Positions 4,869-60,073 of a stretch of 64,000 nt of DNA are shown here, in pieces. Under the pieces are notes generated by a model. That model searched no databases, was not told where the DNA came from, and saw only the letters and a list, made by a program, of their open reading frames with translations. The translations under genes were made by a program, and so were the position numbers. Location of the stretch: assembly GCA_024103495.1 (NCBI GenBank), contig JAGFIQ010000085.1, positions 1 to 64,000 of the forward strand, given 5' to 3'. The stretch comes from Aridibacter famidurans (GTDB lineage: Bacteria; Acidobacteriota; Blastocatellia; Pyrinomonadales; Pyrinomonadaceae). How positions within the stretch are numbered: the first letter of the stretch is position 1; every line of letters starts with the position of its first letter.

Positions 4869-5693
4869 TCAGGAGTTCCTGTATCCGACAACGGGATTCG
4901 GATCGTTCGGCGCGATCACGTACTTGATCTTTCCGCCTTTGCCGGCGATCGTTTCGAGTCCTTTCTGCAGGCCTTCTGCGTAGTCGCCTTCGCCGAGAGA
5001 GATAGTTACGGTCTCACCCGAATCTTCGACCTTTGCCTGCGGGTCCTTGATGTCCGAAAGGTCGAGCGAACGCACCCGTTTCGCGAGCCCGAACTTCCGC
5101 CATTCTTCGACAAGCCGGACATAGAGCTCCACCCGCTTGAGGTTCATCGCCGCCGCGGCCTCGCTGCGGCCGGCGTCCCATCCCGTCATAACGAACGGAG
5201 GGAGCGGCCCCTTCACGTCTTTGGTGATCTTCGCAAGCACCTTCGCATCCTCGTCGACAAGGTAGTCGGCTTCGCCGATCCGGACGACCGCAACGGGCCG
5301 CCTTTCCTCGATCGTGACGCGCACGGTGTCGGGAAGCACCCGTGAAACGCTCGCGTGGCGTACGAATGTCAGTTTTTCGATCTCGTCCCTGATGACCCCC
5401 AGGTCGGTGCTCCAGACGCCCGACTTGAAAGCCTCGGCACGGACGATCTGCTCCACCTTCTTCGAGGAGACCCGCTCGGCTCCGAGCGTCTCGACATTAC
5501 GAACGCGGAAGAAGTCAGACGACGCCGCGCTGCGGAACGCCGCTGAGAACAAGAGCCCCAGGCAGAAGAGTATGCAGGCGGCGAGGAAGAGCGGGACCGC
5601 GAAATTTATAAGCTTGCTTCCGCCGGTCTTTTTCCTCGTCCGGGGCGCCGCCTTTGCGCGCCGTGTCCTTGTCTTGGTTGTCTTTCTAGGCAT
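4869..5693 (-). CDS. ftsQ: Cell division protein FtsQ/DivIB
   Basis: FtsQ is a bitopic divisome scaffold. The 274-residue protein has a very basic cytoplasmic N-terminus (1-26), one membrane segment (about 28-48) and a POTRA domain beginning at [20 protein letters not shown]. The FtsQ domain follows, with [20 protein letters not shown]. It starts at the ATG at 5693, overlapping the end of murC by 8 bp, which indicates translational coupling. The order murC-ftsQ-ftsA-ftsZ is standard except that murB and ddl, often found between murC and ftsQ, are missing here. Confidence 0.93.
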
Positions 5694-7077
5694 TTGCGCT
5701 CCTGAGTTGTTCGAGTATCTCGTCGGAAAGTTTCGTGATGCTTCCCGCGCCGAGCGTGATCAGAAGGTCGTTCGGTTCCAGTTCGGAGGAGACCAATCCC
5801 GCGGCGGTGCCGATCTCGCCTATGTAATTCACACCGCGATGACCGAAGCCTTCGATCTTGTCGGCAAGCACTTCCGCCGTGATCCCCTCGATCGGCGCCT
5901 CGCTCGCCGGATAGATGTCGAGCAGGTAGACCTTGTCAGCGTTGTTGAACGAGGTCGCGAACTCTTCCATAAGGTCCTTGGTCCTCGTGTAGCGATGCGG
6001 CTGGAAGACAACGACGATCCGCCGGCCTCCGGCGCTGTTCTTCGCGGCCTCGAGCGTCGCGGTGATCTCGGTCGGGTGATGCCCGTAGTCGTCGAAGACG
6101 GCGATATCGTTGACGGTCCCCTTGTACTGGAACCTGCGGTCGGCGTTCTTGAATTCCGCGAACGCGTCGGAGATCTTCGGGAACTCGATGTCGAGCTCGA
6201 GCGCGACCGCGACCGCGGCGAGCGCGTTGTAGACGTTGTGTCTGCCGGGCACCGGAAGGTCGATCCTGCCGAGCTCCTGCTGACGGCTCATCACGGTAAA
6301 GCTGGATCCGAAATCCTCATTGAAAGAGATCTCTCTCGCGGAGACGTCCGCCTGCGTGCTCAGTCCGTAAGTGACTATCCGCCGGGTGACCTTCGGGATG
6401 ATCGACTGCACGTGCGGGTCGTCCATGCACAGGACTGCCGCACCGTAGAACGGCACCTTGTTGACGAAGTCCGTGAAGCATTGAAAGACGTCTTCCATTC
6501 CCGCGTATGATTCCATATGCTCGCGGTCGATGTTCGTCACGACGGCGATCGTCGGATAGAGCATAAGGAACGAGCGGTCGCTCTCGTCGGCTTCCGTCAC
6601 GAACCATTCGGAATCTCCGAGCTTCGCGTTCGAACCGAGCGTGTCCACTACGCCGCCGACGATGGTCGTCGGATCGATCCCCGCGTGCCCCAGGACAGTG
6701 GCAACCATCGAGGTCGTCGAGGTCTTGCCGTGCGATCCCGAAACCGCCACCGAGTAGGGCTTCAAGGTCATGAGCTCGGCGAGCATCTCTGCACGGGGAA
6801 TGACCGGGATCTTTTTTTCTCGCGCGGCGACGATCTCCGGATTGTCCTGCTTTACGGCGGACGAATAGACGACGACCTCCGCGTCGCCTATGTTCTCCGC
6901 GGAATGGCCTTCGAAGACGGTGACTCCGACGACCTTCTCGAGCCGCTCGGTGTTCTTCGAGCGGTTCAGGTCGGAGCCGGAGACATTGAACCCCAGGTTC
7001 GAGAGGACCTCGGCGATTCCGCTCATCCCGATACCGCCGATTCCTATGAAATGTATGTTTTTTACGTGACGAAACAT
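5686..7077 (-). CDS. murC: UDP-N-acetylmuramate--L-alanine ligase
   Basis: MurC adds L-alanine to UDP-MurNAc with ATP, the first step of stem-peptide assembly in the cytosol. The 463-residue protein starts with the nucleotide-binding [18 protein letters not shown] and carries the Mur-ligase ATP loop [14 protein letters not shown], followed by the [11 protein letters not shown] segment of the central domain typical of MurC. The ATG at 7077 abuts a heptamer repeat array (7085-7130) instead of the murG gene, so murC is cut off from the upstream cluster by 606 bp of repeats and may need its own promoter. Confidence 0.97.
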
Positions 7078-7084
7078 AAGAATT

Positions 7085-7720
7085 CAGGAGTCAGGAGTCA
7101 GGAGACAAGAGACAAGAGACAAGAGACAGGAAATATACGTCGTCTTCTGCTCTTGAATACATGACACCTGCTCTCTGCTCACTGCTCTCTGCTCACCGCT
7201 AACTGCTCACCGCTCACCGATCTGTTGTCGCTCCTCCGCCCCTCCAGGGCGTGGAAGATTTTTCCTGCCTATACCCCGGGTTTCGCTTCGCTCCACCCGG
7301 GGCTACCATCCGTAGCCCCTTCGGGGCATTCACCTTACAGATCAAGACCATCGGTGTCCGTTACAAACCTGAGTAACCCCACAGACGTCTGCTCATCTCT
7401 CACTGCTCACTGTTCACTGCTCTCTGCTCACCGTTAACTGCTCACCGCTCACCGATCTGTCGCCGCTCCTCCGCCCCTCGAGGGCGTGGAAGAGTTTTCC
7501 TGCCTATACCCCGGGTTTCGCTTCGCTCAACCCGGGGCTACCATCCGTAGCCCCTTCGGGGCATTCACCTTACAGATCAAGACCATCGGTGTACGGTACA
7601 AACCTGAGTAACCCCACAGACGTCTGCTCATCTCTCACTGCTCACCGCTCACCGCTCACTGCTCACCGCTTACTGCTCACCGCTCACTGCTCACCGCTCA
7701 CCGCTAACTGCTCTATCAAC
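7085..7720. repeat. Repeat island splitting murG from murC
   Basis: The 606 bp gap has no gene. It starts with 7-bp repeats CAGGAGT/CAAGAGA (7085-7130) and continues with 7-bp repeats of CTCACCG/CTCACTG/CTAACTG type (about 7155-7220, 7395-7455 and 7625-7720). Between them lies a tandem duplication of about 200 bp: the segment starting at 7216 (ACCGATCTGT...) recurs at 7451, an offset of 235 bp, with few substitutions. Each copy includes a GC-rich palindromic stretch around CCCCGGGTTTCGCTTCGCT. The last heptamers run into the final codons of murG. Confidence 0.9.
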
Positions 7721-8763
7721 TCCGCCGCCGCCTTCGCCGCGTCGCGTTTCGCGAGCTTTCTCGCTGCGTCGCTCATCTGAGCCAGACGCTGCCGGTCTCC
7801 CAGAAGCTCCCTGATCTCTCCCGCAAGCCTTTCGCCGGTTAGGTCCTTCTGCAGGATCATTCTCGCCGCGCCGGCGTCCTGCATCGCTTCGGCGTTCTTT
7901 CGCTGGTGGTCGTCCGCCGCCGTCGGCAGGGGGACCATTATCGCGGGCCGGCCGGCCGCCGCGAGCTCCGCGCAGGTGGTAGCGCCGGCGCGGGTGATCA
8001 GAAGATCGGCGTCGCGGAAGTTCGCGACGATCTCGTTGATGTACTCCGTCACGACCGCCTCGTCCCACCCGGCATTCGCATAGCCACGCCTGACGTTCTC
8101 CAGATCGGACGTCCCGGTCTGATGCGTAATGTTCAGGCGGCCCTTTACATCGGCGAGATGCGGCAATGCGGCGACCATCGCGTTGTTGATTCCGCGCGCG
8201 CCCTGCGATCCGCCGAACAGAAGTATGTTCAATCTTTCGCCTGCAATACGCGGCTCGATCTCAAAGAACTCCTCCCTCACGGGATTTCCTATGACTATGC
8301 CCTTCTTTCCGAAGTGCGGCAGCGCCTCTTCGAACGTCAGCGCCGCCTTGGTCACGAACGGAGCGAGCTGGCGGTTGGTGAATCCGGGAAGCGCGTTCGA
8401 ATCCATCACCAGCGTCGGCACCCTGAGGAAGCTCGCCATCAAAAGCACAGGGCCCGTAACGTAACCGCCGGCGCCTACCACAACGTCCGGCCTGAACTTC
8501 CTTATGATCCGGATCGAATCCAGGAAGCTCTTCGGCAGAAGCGCGAGCCCTTTCAGCTTGCCGGCGAGCCCCACGCTTTTGAGCCCTTTGCTGCTGATAG
8601 TCTCGATCCGGAATCCGTTGTCGGGCACTATCCGGGTTTCGATCCCGCCTCGGGCGCCGACGAACAGGACCTCGTTCCCGCCCCTCGAGAGGATCTCTTT
8701 CGCCACCGCGATTCCCGGATAGATGTGCCCGCCGGTTCCTCCGGCTGCGATGATCACCTTCAT
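7684..8763 (-). CDS. murG: UDP-GlcNAc:lipid I N-acetylglucosaminyltransferase
   Basis: MurG transfers GlcNAc to lipid I to make lipid II on the inner face of the membrane. The 359-residue, GT-B fold protein has the N-terminal loop AAGGTGGHIYPGIAVA, the motif LFGGSQGARGINNAM and the UDP-GlcNAc site ITRAGATTCAELAAAGRPAIMVPLP. It begins 19 bp after ftsW. Its last six codons (AVSGEQ and stop) are read from the heptamer repeat array, so the natural C-terminus seems to have been replaced by repeat sequence. The catalytic core is intact. Confidence 0.97.
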   Translation of the reverse strand: MKVIIAAGGTGGHIYPGIAVAKEILSRGGNEVLFVGARGGIETRIVPDNGFRIETISSKGLKSVGLAGKLKGLALLPKSFLDSIRIIRKFRPDVVVGAGGYVTGPVLLMASFLRVPTLVMDSNALPGFTNRQLAPFVTKAALTFEEALPHFGKKGIVIGNPVREEFFEIEPRIAGERLNILLFGGSQGARGINNAMVAALPHLADVKGRLNITHQTGTSDLENVRRGYANAGWDEAVVTEYINEIVANFRDADLLITRAGATTCAELAAAGRPAIMVPLPTAADDHQRKNAEAMQDAGAARMILQKDLTGERLAGEIRELLGDRQRLAQMSDAARKLAKRDAAKAAAELIEQLAVSGEQ

Positions 8764-41821: not shown

Positions 41822-42008
41822 AGATTATCAATCTCCACAGGTGAGGTATGGAAGGATTCCCCGAAAGGAAGCCTGAAAGGACGTAGAAATGGGCCCTTTG
41901 AAAACGCGTGCATTATAACTTAAATGATTTCTGATGTTAAAATTTTTGTGTTCGGACAAAGGTACAACCGGCCATACGGCAAGGGCGTCAGACTCTGAAA
42001 TTTGCATT

Positions 42009-43004
42009 ATGAGATTGTTAAAGGGCTTTATAATTCCCGCCATTATCGCATTGTCTCTCTGCGCCGCCGTCTTTGCGCAGGACCCCGACGACGTGATCAA
42101 CGTCGATACTTCGCTTGTGAGACTGAACGTCGGCGTCGTCAGCACCGCCGGCACTCCCGTTAGAACATTGACCAAGAACGACTTTCGACTTTTCGAGGAC
42201 GGAGTCGAGCAGGAGATCGTGCGCTTTGAACCGACCCAGGCGCCGTTCTCGCTCGTGATGATCCTCGATATGAGCGGATCGACGCTCAGCTTCCGGCAGA
42301 CGATCAGGACCTCGGCTGTGCGGTTCCTTGATGCCCTGGCTCCGGATGATCGGGTAGCCATCATCGAGTTCTACGACAAGGTCAACGTTCTCAACGACTT
42401 CACTTCGGATAGGCGCAAGCTAGTTCATTCGATCAGCGTCGCCGACGGACGCGGAAAGACGCAGCTCTACAAATCGCTGGAACTTGCGCTTCAGAAACTT
42501 GCGAGGGAGGGCGGCCGCCGGAAAGCGATCATCGTTCTGACGGACGGAGTGGACACCGAAGTCCGCAATCTGGACCGCGAGATCCTGAGCGACGCGCCAG
42601 AAGAGAAGATGAAGGATCGCATCGATCCTGAATCGAGCGCCGCCCTCAAGAAGGTGGTCGACAAAGCATCCGACCAGGGAGTCACGATCTATCCGTTGGC
42701 TCTCCCCACCGGTGACCCTTCCAAGCTCGTCGACCCGTCCCCGATCCAGTTCGCTATGTTCTCCGCCGCACGAGAACGCCTGAACATTCTCGCCAACCGC
42801 ACGGGCGGAACGCTGAACACCATCAACCGGCTCGAAGAAATGGGCAGGCTGTATGCCCAGGTCGCGGGCGATATACGTTCACTTTACACGATCGAGTACC
42901 AGCCGCAGAACGAGAAGCGCGATGGCAAGTGGCGTGAGATCAAGATCGAACTGGCCCGTCCGGAATTGATCTCAAGGACGAAACCCGGATATTTCGCGAA
43001 CTAG
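42009..43004 (+). CDS. Secreted VWA-domain protein (Acidobacteria VWFA-related type)
   Basis: The 331-residue protein starts at the ATG at 42009 with a signal peptide (FIIPAIIALSLCAAVFAQ). A beta domain with NVGVVSTAGTPVRTLTKNDFRLFEDGVEQEI precedes a von Willebrand A domain with a complete metal site: DMSGS, the Thr of GKTQLY, and TDGVD. This arrangement matches a VWFA-related family that is strongly expanded in Acidobacteriota. Metal-dependent adhesion or scaffolding outside the cell is likely. Heptamer repeats start immediately at its stop codon. Confidence 0.9.
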   Translation: MRLLKGFIIPAIIALSLCAAVFAQDPDDVINVDTSLVRLNVGVVSTAGTPVRTLTKNDFRLFEDGVEQEIVRFEPTQAPFSLVMILDMSGSTLSFRQTIRTSAVRFLDALAPDDRVAIIEFYDKVNVLNDFTSDRRKLVHSISVADGRGKTQLYKSLELALQKLAREGGRRKAIIVLTDGVDTEVRNLDREILSDAPEEKMKDRIDPESSAALKKVVDKASDQGVTIYPLALPTGDPSKLVDPSPIQFAMFSAARERLNILANRTGGTLNTINRLEEMGRLYAQVAGDIRSLYTIEYQPQNEKRDGKWREIKIELARPELISRTKPGYFAN

Positions 43005-43245
43005 TGAGCGTTGAGCAGTGAGCGGTGGGACCGCGGGCGTCCCCGCCCGCCCCTGTTTACAGTACTGAGTGCTTCGATGAGTGGCGAGATCGTCTCTTCC
43101 AACGAGATCGTGTCTTCCAAAATGCAGGGGGCCGCTTGGACCGCGGGCGTCCCCGCCCGCCCTGTCCGATAAGCTTCAGCTTGTCGCCCGCCCTCCCGGC
43201 TCTTCGTACTGCTATGTCCGATAAGCTTCAGCTTGTCGTCCGCCT
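43005..43245. repeat. Heptamers, GC palindromes and two REP-like elements
   Basis: Directly after the VWA stop codon come 7-bp repeats (GTGAGCG, TTGAGCA, GTGAGCG). Then two GCGGGCGTCCCCGCCCGC palindromes (near 43032 and 43142) and two REP-like elements in inverted orientation (43162-43190 and 43215-43243) follow. The rest of the gap to 43580 has no repeat or gene I can support, apart from a candidate promoter. Confidence 0.85.
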
Positions 43246-46489: not shown

Positions 46490-47320
46490 AGGTACGATAG
46501 GCTTCAGCCTGTCGACTGGAGTGCAGGGGTCCTGGGACCGCAGGCGTCCTGGGACCGCGGGCGTCCCCGCCCGCCCGGTTTCAAGTACTGTGTGCTGAGA
46601 GACGAGTGCCGAGATCGTCCCTTCTGAAATGCAGGGATCCGCTTGGACCGCGGGCGTCCCCGCCCGCCGGGTTTCAAGTACTGAGTGCTGAGAGACGAGT
46701 ACTGAGATCGTCCCTTCTGAAATGCAGGGATCCGCTTGGACCGCGGGCGTCCCCGCCCGCCCGTTTTCAAGTACTGAGTGCTGAGAGACGAGTACTGAGA
46801 TCTTCCCGTCTGAAACAGGGGATCCTCGCCTGGACCGTGGGCGTACTGACTGGAGCGCAGGCGGCCCGCCTGCTTTGTTCGATTAGTTTTAGCCTGTCGT
46901 CTTGACCCCTGCCGACACCGCCCGCTTTTTCCGATAAGCTTCAGTTTGTCGCCCGCTTTGTCCGATAAGCTTCAGCTTGTCGCCAGCCGACAGGCGGGAA
47001 CAAATACGTGACAAATCACCGCTGATTCCTGCAGCACTCTCCGCCAGAAATGAGCTTGGTCCGGCGTCGGTCACTTACAGCCGAAGCCGGAAGAGGGACA
47101 AGCTGAAGCTCGTCGCACATCGCCAGAATGTCTCTTGTTCTACTGCTCACCGCCCCCTGCTCACCGCTCACCGCTCTCCGCTCACCGCTTACTGCTTCCG
47201 GCTCACTGCTCACCGCCCCCTGCTCACCGCTCACGGCTCACCCCCCCCTGCTCACCGCCCCCTGCCCACCGCTCACCGCTCTCCGCTCACTGCCCACCGC
47301 TCACCTCTCAGGGATCACCA
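46490..47320. repeat. Repeat island with a 93-bp tandem array, REP elements and heptamers
   Basis: No gene is supported in 46477-47388. The unit starting GACCGCGGGCGTCC recurs at 46553, 46646 and 46739, exactly 93 bp apart, each with a GCGGGCGTCCCCGCCCGC palindrome followed by AAGTACTGAGTGCTGAGAG. A fourth, degenerate copy follows near 46830. REP-like elements lie at 46493-46515 (variant), 46870-46895 (variant), 46928-46952 and 46957-46983. From 47140 to 47310 runs a long array of 7-bp units (CTCACCG, CTCTCCG, CCCCCTG, CTTACTG). Confidence 0.9.
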
Positions 47321-47388
47321 ATTTTCTTTGAACCTGGAACCTGGAACCTTGAACTGGGCCAGCCAAATCTGTACTCTTATACCTTCGT

Positions 47389-47465
47389 GCACCCGTAGCT
47401 CAGCTGGATAGAGTGCTTGACTACGAATCAAGAGGTCATAGGTTCGAATCCTGTCGGGTGCACCA
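47389..47465 (+). tRNA. tRNA-Arg (anticodon ACG)
   Basis: The 77-nt sequence folds as a complete tRNA. The acceptor stem GCACCCG pairs with CGGGTGC, the D-arm contains GCTCAGCTGGATAGAGT, the anticodon stem CTTGA/TCAAG holds the loop CTACGAA with anticodon ACG, and the T-loop is TTCGAAT. The discriminator is A and the CCA is encoded. The A34 would be deaminated to inosine to read CGU, CGC and CGA codons. Confidence 0.96.
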
Positions 47466-54617: not shown

Positions 54618-55040
54618 TCAGAAAAGGTCCTCGCCGGGAATGTCCGACGCCTGCCCGATCCAGTCAGCCATCTGCACTTCGTCGATCTCGTCGTCCTCGT
54701 GAATGTGGAAGTACCAGACATCCTCGTGCTTTGACTTAACCGGCGGAGGAGGATCGAGCGACGAACCATTCAGGAATGTGATCTTTACGTACTTCGTGAA
54801 GCAATGAATGCTTAGGAACCAGCCTCGACCCTCGATCCCGTAAAAAGGAGAGTTCCAGCGGACCGCCTTTCGGACACGGGGGACGGTCTTTTCGATCAGT
54901 TCGTCGAGTTTCTTGCCGACATCGCGTTTCCAGCCGGGCATCGCGGCGATGTATTCCTGAACGGGCTCGTCGCCGTCGGCTTTGGCGATCTGCGGATTGC
55001 CGCCGGAAAGGAGGACGGGTTTTTTCTTGTTGGCTGGCAT
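54618..55040 (-). CDS. DUF1801 protein 2
   Basis: The 140-residue protein starts at the ATG at 55040; the open frame upstream is repeat sequence. It has a Lys-rich start, then VQEYIAAMPGWKRDVGKKLDELI, VRKAVRWNSPFYGIEG and FTKYVKITFLNGSSL, the main DUF1801 blocks, and an acidic tail HIHEDDEIDEVQMADWI. It is 45 bp upstream of DUF1801 protein 1. The start codon abuts a 58-bp tandem array. Confidence 0.86.
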   Translation of the reverse strand: MPANKKKPVLLSGGNPQIAKADGDEPVQEYIAAMPGWKRDVGKKLDELIEKTVPRVRKAVRWNSPFYGIEGRGWFLSIHCFTKYVKITFLNGSSLDPPPPVKSKHEDVWYFHIHEDDEIDEVQMADWIGQASDIPGEDLF

Positions 55041-55348
55041 CTCTCTGGACCGCGGGCGTCCCCGCCCGCATCGGTTCGACAAAAGCGGCACGCCTCCAGC
55101 GTTTGGACCGCGGGCGTCCCCGCCCGCATCGGTTCGACAAAAGCGGCACGCCTCCGGCGTTTGGACCGCGGGCGTCCCCGCCCGCATCGGTTCGACAAGA
55201 GCGGCACGCCTCCGGCGTGCGGCAACGTTTGCGATCCTTACCCCGGGCTGCGCCTTCGGCTTGCCCGGGGCTAACTTCCGTCGCCCCTCCGGGGCGAAGC
55301 TGACTCCTGTCTCCTGTCTCCTGTCTCCAGTCTCCTGTCTTCTGACTT
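55041..55348. repeat. 58-bp tandem array, palindromes and heptamers
   Basis: Three copies of a unit GGACCGCGGGCGTCCCCG...GGCACGCCTCC start at 55047, 55105 and 55163, exactly 58 bp apart and nearly identical. They are followed by a GGCACGCCTCCGGCGTGC palindrome, a CCCCGGGCTGCGCC... and ...CGCCCCTCCGGGGCG pair (55238-55295) and 7-bp CTGTCTC repeats (55303-55345). The heptamers end at the stop codon of the DUF1801 gene at 55349. Confidence 0.9.
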
Positions 55349-55738
55349 CTACTTCAGCCTCTCCAGCTTGCCCTTCCGCTTGATCAGGTTCTTGTAATCC
55401 CACTGGATCTCGCGCGACTTCGCCAGCCAGCGCTCGAGGTCGTCGAGATCGACTTGAACGACCGACGTGTAGAAGATCGAGGCGTCTTTGAACTTGCTCT
55501 TCCCTGCCAGACCTTCCTCTTCAAACGACTGACCGCTCCAGAACATAAGCCGCAGGCCCGCCTTTTGCTTGCTGTACCCTACGATCGGATTCCCGTCCAG
55601 GAACCAGACCGGATGCCGATGCCAAATCTTGTTCTCGGCCTCGGGAAGATGCTTGTCTATCTCCGTCGCGAGCAGATCGCAGATCTTGCGGTCGGAAGGA
55701 GACTGGGAAACGTTGTATTTTTTGGTGTCGGCGTGCAT
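55349..55738 (-). CDS. DUF1801 protein 3
   Basis: The 129-residue protein has ICDLLATEIDKHLPEAENKIWHRHPVWFLDGNPIVGYSKQKAGL in segments typical of DUF1801, with the RLMFWSGQSFEEEGL variant strand. The ATG at 55738 is clear. Its stop codon is followed at once by heptamer repeats (AAGTCAG, AAGACAG, GAGACAG). The function is unknown. Confidence 0.86.
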   Translation of the reverse strand: MHADTKKYNVSQSPSDRKICDLLATEIDKHLPEAENKIWHRHPVWFLDGNPIVGYSKQKAGLRLMFWSGQSFEEEGLAGKSKFKDASIFYTSVVQVDLDDLERWLAKSREIQWDYKNLIKRKGKLERLK

Positions 55739-58499: not shown

Positions 58500-58836
58500 A
58501 CGCCGCTGACGCGGCTGGATATTTGGAGGTGCCTCCATACCGTGGGTGGCGCCCTTCGGGCTTACCCACGGCTAAATGCATATGACCGCTACGCGGTCGG
58601 CTTTTTCCGATCCCTGTCTCCTGTCTCCGCCGCCTAAGGACCAGGCAGCACGCCTCCGGCGTGCGGATCGTCGGCGGTCTTTTACCCCGGGCTGCGCCTT
58701 CGGCTAGCCCGGGGCTAACATCCGTCGCCCCTTCGGGGCGGGAGAGTCTCCTAACTGCTGTCTCCCGTTTCCCGTCTCCTGTCTCCTGCTATGCCCGTCG
58801 CTCGCGCTCCGGGTTCCGATCTCTGTCTCCTGTCTC
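58500..58836. repeat. Repeat block between fabH and the NTF2 gene
   Basis: The 405 bp gap has no gene. It carries a CCGTGGGTGGCGCCCTTCGG...CCCACGGCTAAAT unit (58541-58578) identical in design to 63811-63848, CTGTCTC heptamers (58612-58628, 58745-58789 and 58820-58838), a GGCACGCCTCCGGCGTGC palindrome (near 58653) and a CCCCGGGCTGCGCC... GCCCCTTCGGGGC pair (58684-58740). The final heptamers run into the fabH stop codon. Confidence 0.9.
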
Positions 58837-59895
58837 CTAGAACCCATACACCACCGCGTTGCAATGCATCCCGGCGCCGACCGAGGCGAAGACCACCGTG
58901 TCGCCTTCGTCGATCGAGTAGCCATCGAGCTTTCCCTTCAGGATCAGGTCCAGCATAGTCGGGATAGTCGCAACCGACGTGTTCCCAAGGAACTGGATCG
59001 TCATCGGGAGCTTTCCTTCGAGGCTCTCCGGCTCGACTCCGTACAGCTCGGCCAAATGATTCCCGACTGCCTCGATCAGCTTTTCGTTTGCCTGATGAAA
59101 AAGGAACATTCCGATGTCCGCGAGCCCGAGTCCCGCGCGGTCCAGGGCCTTCTTCACAACCTTCGGGACCCACGTCGTCGCGTAACGGTAAACTTCCCTG
59201 CCGTTCATCTTGAACCAGCAGCTTCCGGGCACGCCTTCCTTGTTCGATCTGCCCAGGTAAATGTTCTCGAGGTCCTTGTTCGCGTGCGAGAATGTCGCGT
59301 GCGAGATCACGCCCTGTCCCGATCCGTCTTTCGAGAAAACCGCCGCGCCGCATCCGTCACCCAGGATCATCGAGTCTACATCGTGCGGATCGAGCATTCT
59401 CGAAGCTACCTCGATTCCGACGACCAGCACGTTCTCCGCGTCGCCGGACTCGATCGACTGGTGAGCTTGGATCACCCCTTGAAGCCAGCCCGGGCAGGCA
59501 AACAGAATATCGTACGCGAAGCATTCGTGGTTCGTGACGTCGAGGGCGTTCTTCAGATAGGCCGCCATGTTCGGGACAGTGTGAAAGGCCTGTTCGCCGA
59601 TGAGGATGTTCCCGGCATTGTGCGCGACGATGATCCCGTCAAGATCGTCCGGAGCGAGCCCCGAATCCGCGACCGCCTTCCTCGCCGCATCGGTCATCAA
59701 GGGCCTGGAGTCCTGATCGAACGGAACGTACCGGCGTTCGCGTATGCCGGAGATCGACTCGAGCTTCGCGGCGGCTTCTTTGCCCGATACAGGCAAGGCT
59801 GCCCCGCTTTTGTCGTAAAAGATATTCTCGTGGAACTCGCTGTTTGGAACGACGAGCTCCGGAAGGGCGCTTCCCGTCCCTTTGATAGCGCTCAT
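58837..59895 (-). CDS. 3-oxoacyl-ACP synthase III (KAS III/FabH family)
   Basis: KAS III condenses acyl-CoA with malonyl-ACP to start fatty acid chains. The 352-residue protein starts at the ATG at 59895 and has the catalytic triad C134 (FACPGW), H267 (FLFHQAN) and N305 (FLGNTSVATIP). At 352 residues it is about 30 longer than FabH of Escherichia coli, and it could be a FabH-like enzyme of secondary metabolism or long-chain condensation. It is not in a fab cluster. The stop codon abuts a heptamer array. Confidence 0.86.
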   Translation of the reverse strand: MSAIKGTGSALPELVVPNSEFHENIFYDKSGAALPVSGKEAAAKLESISGIRERRYVPFDQDSRPLMTDAARKAVADSGLAPDDLDGIIVAHNAGNILIGEQAFHTVPNMAAYLKNALDVTNHECFAYDILFACPGWLQGVIQAHQSIESGDAENVLVVGIEVASRMLDPHDVDSMILGDGCGAAVFSKDGSGQGVISHATFSHANKDLENIYLGRSNKEGVPGSCWFKMNGREVYRYATTWVPKVVKKALDRAGLGLADIGMFLFHQANEKLIEAVGNHLAELYGVEPESLEGKLPMTIQFLGNTSVATIPTMLDLILKGKLDGYSIDEGDTVVFASVGAGMHCNAVVYGF

Positions 59896-60073
59896 ATGAA
59901 CAGGGATTCTAACACTATACGGCCCGAATCCCGCGACCCGGATTCCATCCTTGCGCGCCTGAACCAAGCCCATTCCAGGTCGCCTGCCTTGCATTCGTAA
60001 GCCCCAACGTATATTCCTTCGCCAAGGCTTTTCCGTTCATAGCCCGGTTTCTTGGCGTTCGTTCTCATGTCTT

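Follow-up and report, generated by a model that had tools for sequence, protein, structure and literature searches.

The window analysed here is a 64,000-nt stretch of Aridibacter famidurans DNA (contig JAGFIQ010000085.1, positions 1 to 64,000). The source genome is 4.38 Mb in 188 contigs and Pyrinomonadaceae-like (Acidobacteriota); its murG shares 79% identity with the gene of Acidobacteria bacterium LA_ACB_2 and about 60-69% with those of many Pyrinomonadaceae genomes. Tandem arrays of 7-nt units lie beside several genes of the window, listed here with the arrays (strand in parentheses):

5686-7077 (-): murC, a Mur ligase gene (Pfam PF01225/PF08245/PF02875)
7084-7131 (+): CAGGAGA/GAGTCAG array ending 6 nt before the murC start codon and reading outward from murC
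7165-7219 (-): GAGCAGT-family array inside the murG-murC gap
7389-7454 (-): GAGCAGT-family array, second copy within a 235-bp direct duplication
7624-7713 (-): GAGCAGT-family array covering the last 30 nt of murG and providing its TGA stop
7684-8763 (-): murG (Pfam PF04101/PF03033)
41934-43004 (+): VWA-domain gene (Pfam PF13519 VWA_2, 5e-13) whose stop touches an array; the C-terminus RPGYFA[KN]-stop is kept in relatives
43004-43024 (+): three heptamers, GTGAGCG TTGAGCA GTGAGCG, the first sharing the G of the VWA stop TAG (43002-43004)
47145-47310 (-): GAGCAGT-family array that lies about 79 nt upstream of tRNA-Arg (47389-47465) and reads outward from it
47330-47354 (-): CAGGTTC array 34 nt upstream of tRNA-Arg
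55300-55348 (-): GAGACAG/GAGTCAG/AAGTCAG array whose first base directly follows the DUF1801 stop TAG (55349-55351)
55349-55738 (-): DUF1801 gene (Pfam PF08818, 3e-7)
58613-58628 (-): GAGACAG array in a gap interior
58746-58788 (-): GAGACAG-family array 48 nt after the fabH-like stop, which is the nearest stop
58823-58836 (-): GAGACAG GAGACAG, directly 3′ of the fabH-like stop TAG (58837-58839); the orthologous stop is conserved
58837-59994 (-): 3-oxoacyl-ACP synthase III-like (fabH-like) gene (Pfam PF08545/PF08541)

The VWA array matches its unit pattern without mismatch (0 such matches expected by chance), and with up to two mismatches the pattern has 34 matches in the window and none in 100 dinucleotide shuffles. 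The initial annotation had proposed that heptamer arrays begin exactly at stop codons, and all four contacts it named are real: the three VWA units begin at the stop, the DUF1801 array starts at the base after its stop, GAGACAGGAGACAG places its first unit on the base right after the FabH-like stop, and the final murG codons are array-encoded, so that the protein ends in ...AVSGEQ before the stop at 7684-7686 (- strand). Its tally of four out of four arrays at gene ends left out the arrays at 7084-7131, close to the murC start, and at 58746-58788, 48 nt from a stop.

Other repeats accompany the heptamers. In the murG-murC gap, a 235-bp segment bounded by heptamers on either side is directly duplicated at 7168-7687 (94% identity). 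Larger tandem repeats (93 bp x3 and 58 bp x3) at 46552-46844 and 55046-55218 centre on the palindrome GGACCGCGGGCGTCCCCGCCCGC, of which a single copy also lies next to the VWA array. Two adjacent DUF1801 genes (54618-55040 and 55349-55738) are separated by the 58-bp tandem repeat and the heptamer array. Relatives of the VWA-domain gene (41934-43004) give roughly 20-45 matches per related genome.

The arrays were surveyed in 1.35 Mb of the genome (about 31%), taken as stretches from contigs that were partly picked for heptamer matches, a choice that alters array density and should not bias position within gaps. Genes were called with a purpose-written codon model, for which stops are reliable and starts less certain; period-7 arrays were found with TRF, and expected contacts were obtained by random placement of the arrays within the same intergenic gaps. 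In the first 822 kb, where the intergenic share is 16%, 152 of 170 period-7 arrays are mainly intergenic and so qualify as intergenic heptamer SSRs. They belong to about ten unrelated families, with the outward-reading units GAGCAGT, ACTGAGG, ACAGGAG, CCAGGTT, GACCATT, AATCGTG, GATGAGT, AAAAAGT, ACCAGGG and AAAGTTC. G050, a genome from the same class but more distantly related, was run through the pipeline as a negative control and yielded two intergenic heptamer arrays in 400 kb, and only 2 of its 18 period-7 arrays were intergenic. Searches with reversed patterns are an unclean control, as reversed heptamers can look like other families.

The initial annotation had set beforehand, as its refuting test, a comparison of stop contact with random intergenic placement. 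An excess was found: 59 of 261 array-to-stop distances are at most 3 nt, overlaps included, against 25±4.3 expected, and 15 start 0-3 nt after an intact stop, against 3.8. TGA accounts for 34 of the 44 stops that are overlapped by arrays. The excess is repeated in a second genome of the same genus (G002; 35 vs 10.1) and is not significant in a genome of another genus (G008; 14 vs 11.9, P 0.24). The supposed specificity for 3′ ends did not hold, however, since arrays within 10 nt of start codons are equally in excess (29 vs 8.8 expected) and read outward from both gene ends. At 28 of these 29 start-adjacent sites an SD-like motif is absent, compared with 663 of 1072 other genes; start-adjacent arrays have thus replaced the usual translation-initiation signal, the Shine-Dalgarno region. 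Among gaps of 100-600 nt, arrays occur in 7 of 108 divergent gaps, as opposed to 23 of 80 convergent and 92 of 328 codirectional ones, an avoidance that promoter-bearing DNA would require. Promoters in the cores between arrays were not significantly enriched (13 vs 10.5±2.4 in shuffles). Termination, also suggested at the outset, is not supported in its intrinsic form: signals consisting of a hairpin and a U-tract are found at 2 of 77 array stops and at 58 of 585 other stops, and arrays lie inside essential operons such as murG-murC.

The strand check that had been called for gave a near-uniform answer. With R as the outward-reading strand, Y as its complement, and orientation scored for arrays within 30 nt of a gene, leave-one-out prediction by family finds the outward orientation in 77 of 77 arrays at stops and 33 of 38 at starts, and in G002 in 40 of 42 and 11 of 12, respectively. 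Orientation at starts is also predicted by the stop-side arrays of the same family (33/36 here, 10/11 in G002). Most outward units have more G than C (68 vs 8 at stops and 33 vs 3 at starts), as do those of the relatives (46 vs 9 and 37 vs 10). An apparent whole-contig strand bias in the G002 match list was not borne out, the sampled stretches holding both orientations.

Gaps with several arrays run R...R Y...Y. Neighbouring pairs are RY rather than YR in a ratio of 35:0 here, 12:0 in G002 and 5:2 in G008, although the absence of YR is partly implied by the outward rule for gene-adjacent pairs, and independent support comes only from pairs with a distant member; where one or both arrays lie more than 60 nt from any gene, the source genome has 16 and 2 RY pairs, respectively, and no YR pair. 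R and Y arrays of one gap come from one family in 13 of 28 cases (4.9 expected, P 2e-4), and in a second count of RY pairs in 17 of 35, so about half of the pairs join different families. The cores between R and Y are almost never common to several sites and consist mostly of unshared sequence. In the source genome, unit variants of the two arms stand in mirror order no more than in the control (mean rank 0.48); such an order seems present in some relatives (L046, L095), where it is suggestive only.

Several causes of this arrangement were considered and set aside. An RNA hairpin does not account for the orientation, as RY pairs of different, non-complementary families follow the rule too; nor does stop-codon content, as stop-free families comply and the relatives have the opposite strand bias at starts; nor does a G-quadruplex, as GGG is present in only 5 of 83 stop-side and 1 of 39 start-side units. 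A conserved mobile core was likewise rejected on the rarity of shared cores, and fold-back copying on the arm mirror order in the source genome.

Comparison of orthologous junctions reveals how the gaps differ among species. In about 20 array-free relatives the murG-murC gap is about -8 to +16 nt, that is, the genes overlap or nearly touch, often with ATGTTTAG in common. The gap measures 44-347 nt in 36 of 63 relatives, a tandem array of period 6-12 was detected at 28 of the 63 junctions, the unit differs from species to species, and the insert often consists of inverted tandem repeats. For example, the junction of L118 reads TAG-(TGGTTGG)3-TATCAAGAGG-(CCAACCA)4-CT-ATG, and L047, L048, L095 and L105 have further inverted-pair inserts, some of them nested. 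Inserts are also found at other tight dcw junctions (mraY-murD, 18/60; murD-ftsW, 16/63) and are rare at ftsA-ftsZ (5/59), where the gap is long and conserved. With one masked gap left out, 26 of 128 inserted gaps contain inverted arms scoring at least 30, against 0.33 expected from other species' gaps. That tightly packed genes in array-free relatives are split by inserts in others explains why contact is so common.

The stops beyond which arrays lie are themselves stable. The VWA stop is conserved, with four different heptamer families directly 3′ of it in four species and no array in three others, and the FabH-like stop, likewise conserved, has an array in three of six species; hence gene ends are fixed and the DNA beyond them is exchanged. 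The proposal of targeted insertion or amplification at 3′ ends survives in part, in that different units have been inserted recurrently at orthologous junctions, and fails in its restriction to 3′ ends. In the three array-less VWA orthologues a short gap is followed by a tRNA, the start of which matches the window's tRNA-Arg, here 4.4 kb away. At murG-murC, the last residues of MurG are apparently heptamer-encoded in L090, L097, L099 and L083 (e.g. ...SGQWSVVSGQ before the stop), so that repeats appear to rewrite the C-terminus of this essential enzyme.

Heptamer repeats are over-represented in many bacteria, with origin and role unexplained (PMC4692102). Rehm et al. (2015) described the G-rich heptamers GGGAATC in Xanthomonas and GGGGA(C/T)T in Nostoc as mainly intergenic and near ORFs: past stops (within 0-50 bp, some stops being overlapped) they lie on the coding strand, ahead of starts on the non-coding one, and they are under-represented between divergent genes (PMC4692102). 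The arrays described here share with them the period of 7, the outward rule and the scarcity in divergent gaps. They differ in that Xanthomonas and Nostoc each have one G4-forming family, whereas here there are about ten, nearly all without GGG. The creation of gaps and the R-then-Y order are described here and go beyond the published account. The TAACTGA repeats of Beggiatoaceae, cyanobacteria and Bacteroidetes are intergenic, mostly just before start codons and in one orientation (Table 1 gives 147 toward a start and 12 toward a stop for BOGUAY); in some relatives the gaps are shorter and repeat-free, and the repeats were read as binding sites of a translational regulator (MacGregor 2015; PMC4679880). 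They constitute a single family that has its start-side orientation in common with the heptamers here. TAACTGA is not among the families in the 1.35 Mb sampled from the source genome; it does occur in Acidobacteriota, in the murG-murC gap of relatives L069 and L077.

The STRR heptanucleotide repeats of heterocystous cyanobacteria (Calothrix), as cited in PMC4692102, also comprise several tandem 7-mers per genome, as here, in a different phylum. REP and REPIN elements are associated with RAYT transposases (e.g. PMC3116915, PMC2817692), and REPs are described as 20-40 bp palindromes (PMC3733652). Heptamer arrays resemble REP/REPIN elements in being intergenic, inverted and present in many copies, in a genome with Y1_Tnp genes. 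Going by that description of REP palindromes, they differ from these in being tandem tracts without a common core. The inverted terminal arms expected of a REPIN or MITE are found in the relatives' inserts, whereas a whole conserved element at many sites is not, the R-Y cores being rarely shared. A literature search on Acidobacteria heptamers found no earlier description.

With about ten families in one genome obeying a single orientation rule, explanations tied to a particular unit, G-quadruplexes among them, fall away, and the rule published for Xanthomonas and Nostoc would seem to be a general one. The account we favour, and would give about an even chance of being right, is that the arrays are inserted intergenic DNA, which accounts for much of the sequence separating their flanking genes and is halted by gene edges, rather than devices of 3′ ends. 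A DNA-level process would place tracts of 7-mers, and of related 9-mers, between genes, in many cases as inverted pairs whose R strand reads outward from both flanking genes; the tracts would afterwards lengthen and shorten through slippage. Purifying selection would bound them, tolerating a tract up to the first base after a stop and to about 4-10 nt before a start, and a tract that entered a dispensable C-terminus would supply its own TGA, TAG or TAA as a new stop. Contact with stops and starts would thus follow from purifying selection at gene edges, and exact contact is most simply explained if the insert itself makes up the intergenic DNA and is stopped by selection at the gene edge. Contact at two edges, the outward rule, the R-then-Y order, inverted arms, gap creation and units that differ between species at one junction are direct observations. 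From these we infer that replication or repair, through slippage and template switching, gave rise to the tracts, which would then not be selected functional elements, and that families spread within the genome by copying; the most conventional source would be slippage with template switching at inverted repeats. Three results tell against this account of edge-limited inserts: R-Y cores are mostly unshared and a simple model of one inserted palindrome misses some gaps, the contact excess is not significant in G008, and the mirror order of the arms is not above control in the source genome.

The outward rule would follow with no extra assumption if the arrays were mobile inverted-repeat elements, REPIN- or MITE-like and perhaps moved by RAYT-type Y1 transposases, with each copy built as R-loop-Y, R always left and Y right. 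The 16 Y1_Tnp genes (PF01797) of the genome, the inverted arms of the relatives' inserts, the REP-like GTTTAG hairpins within arrays (18 of 94 right after GTGAGCC) and the avoidance of divergent gaps speak for such elements. We consider them unlikely all the same, as the near absence of shared cores speaks against a classical mobile element, RY pairs mix families about half of the time, the unit at one junction differs among species, and adjacent copies would yield Y-R neighbours, which are nearly absent. Insertion in either orientation, with transcript-level selection keeping the outward arrays, is another account that we rate as improbable. The strand retained in the sense direction would be free of SD-like motifs and spurious GTG starts before start codons, and would provide extra stop codons after stops. 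In the source genome all orientation exceptions lie at starts (5/38, and 0/77 at stops), start-adjacent arrays lack an SD-like motif in 28 of 29 cases, and the outward unit contains a stop codon in 57 of 83 stop-side cases, against 12 of 83 for the inward unit. Such selection would not, however, orient CCAGGTT and ACAGGAG, which are stop-free in both directions and equally strictly oriented; start-side arrays in the relatives carry stops mostly inward (30, vs 15 outward), pairs with one or both arrays more than 60 nt from any gene are still never Y-R, and no pressure is obvious against Y arrays a few bases past an intact stop.

A functional 3′-end element that serves termination or mRNA stability and is recruited to stop codons, or amplified there, was the reading from which the analysis started and is now very unlikely. 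Starts are equally crowded with orientation mirrored, terminator-like signals are rarer at array stops than elsewhere, arrays lie within essential operons and many orthologues are array-free; moreover, RY pairs of different families cannot pair mutually, so that a hairpin function cannot set the orientation. These results outweigh the reality of stop contact, the repeated gain of arrays at orthologous VWA and fabH-like stops, and the report that transcript starts and ends in Xanthomonas were more frequent at heptamer repeats capable of G4 formation than at control repeats (PMC4692102). Also very unlikely is an undescribed telomere-like DNA end-extension activity that would append heptamers in the 5′ to 3′ direction, outward on either side of intergenic breaks. 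If real, it would explain why arrays face outward at both gene ends, why R precedes Y and why pairs so often belong to one family, and its reach would include the published heptamers of Xanthomonas, Nostoc and Beggiatoa; against its simplest form stand the many R-Y pairs with unshared cores.

The dcw operon offers dozens of before-and-after comparisons, overlapping genes on one side and genes split by inverted arrays on the other, which makes the origin of the repeats testable across close strains. A warning for annotation also follows: the repeats can overwrite C-termini, stop codons and Shine-Dalgarno regions. Two further kinds of repeat were noted at similar sites. REP-like hairpins tagged GTTTAG lie inside heptamer arrays with fixed orientation (L003-L042, L123-L142; e.g. 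C48:42285, C183:77463, C91:38990), and nonamer arrays (CGCAAAGNN and similar) show a heptamer-like inverted arrangement at gene edges (L056, L047, L110, C98:51472-51716).
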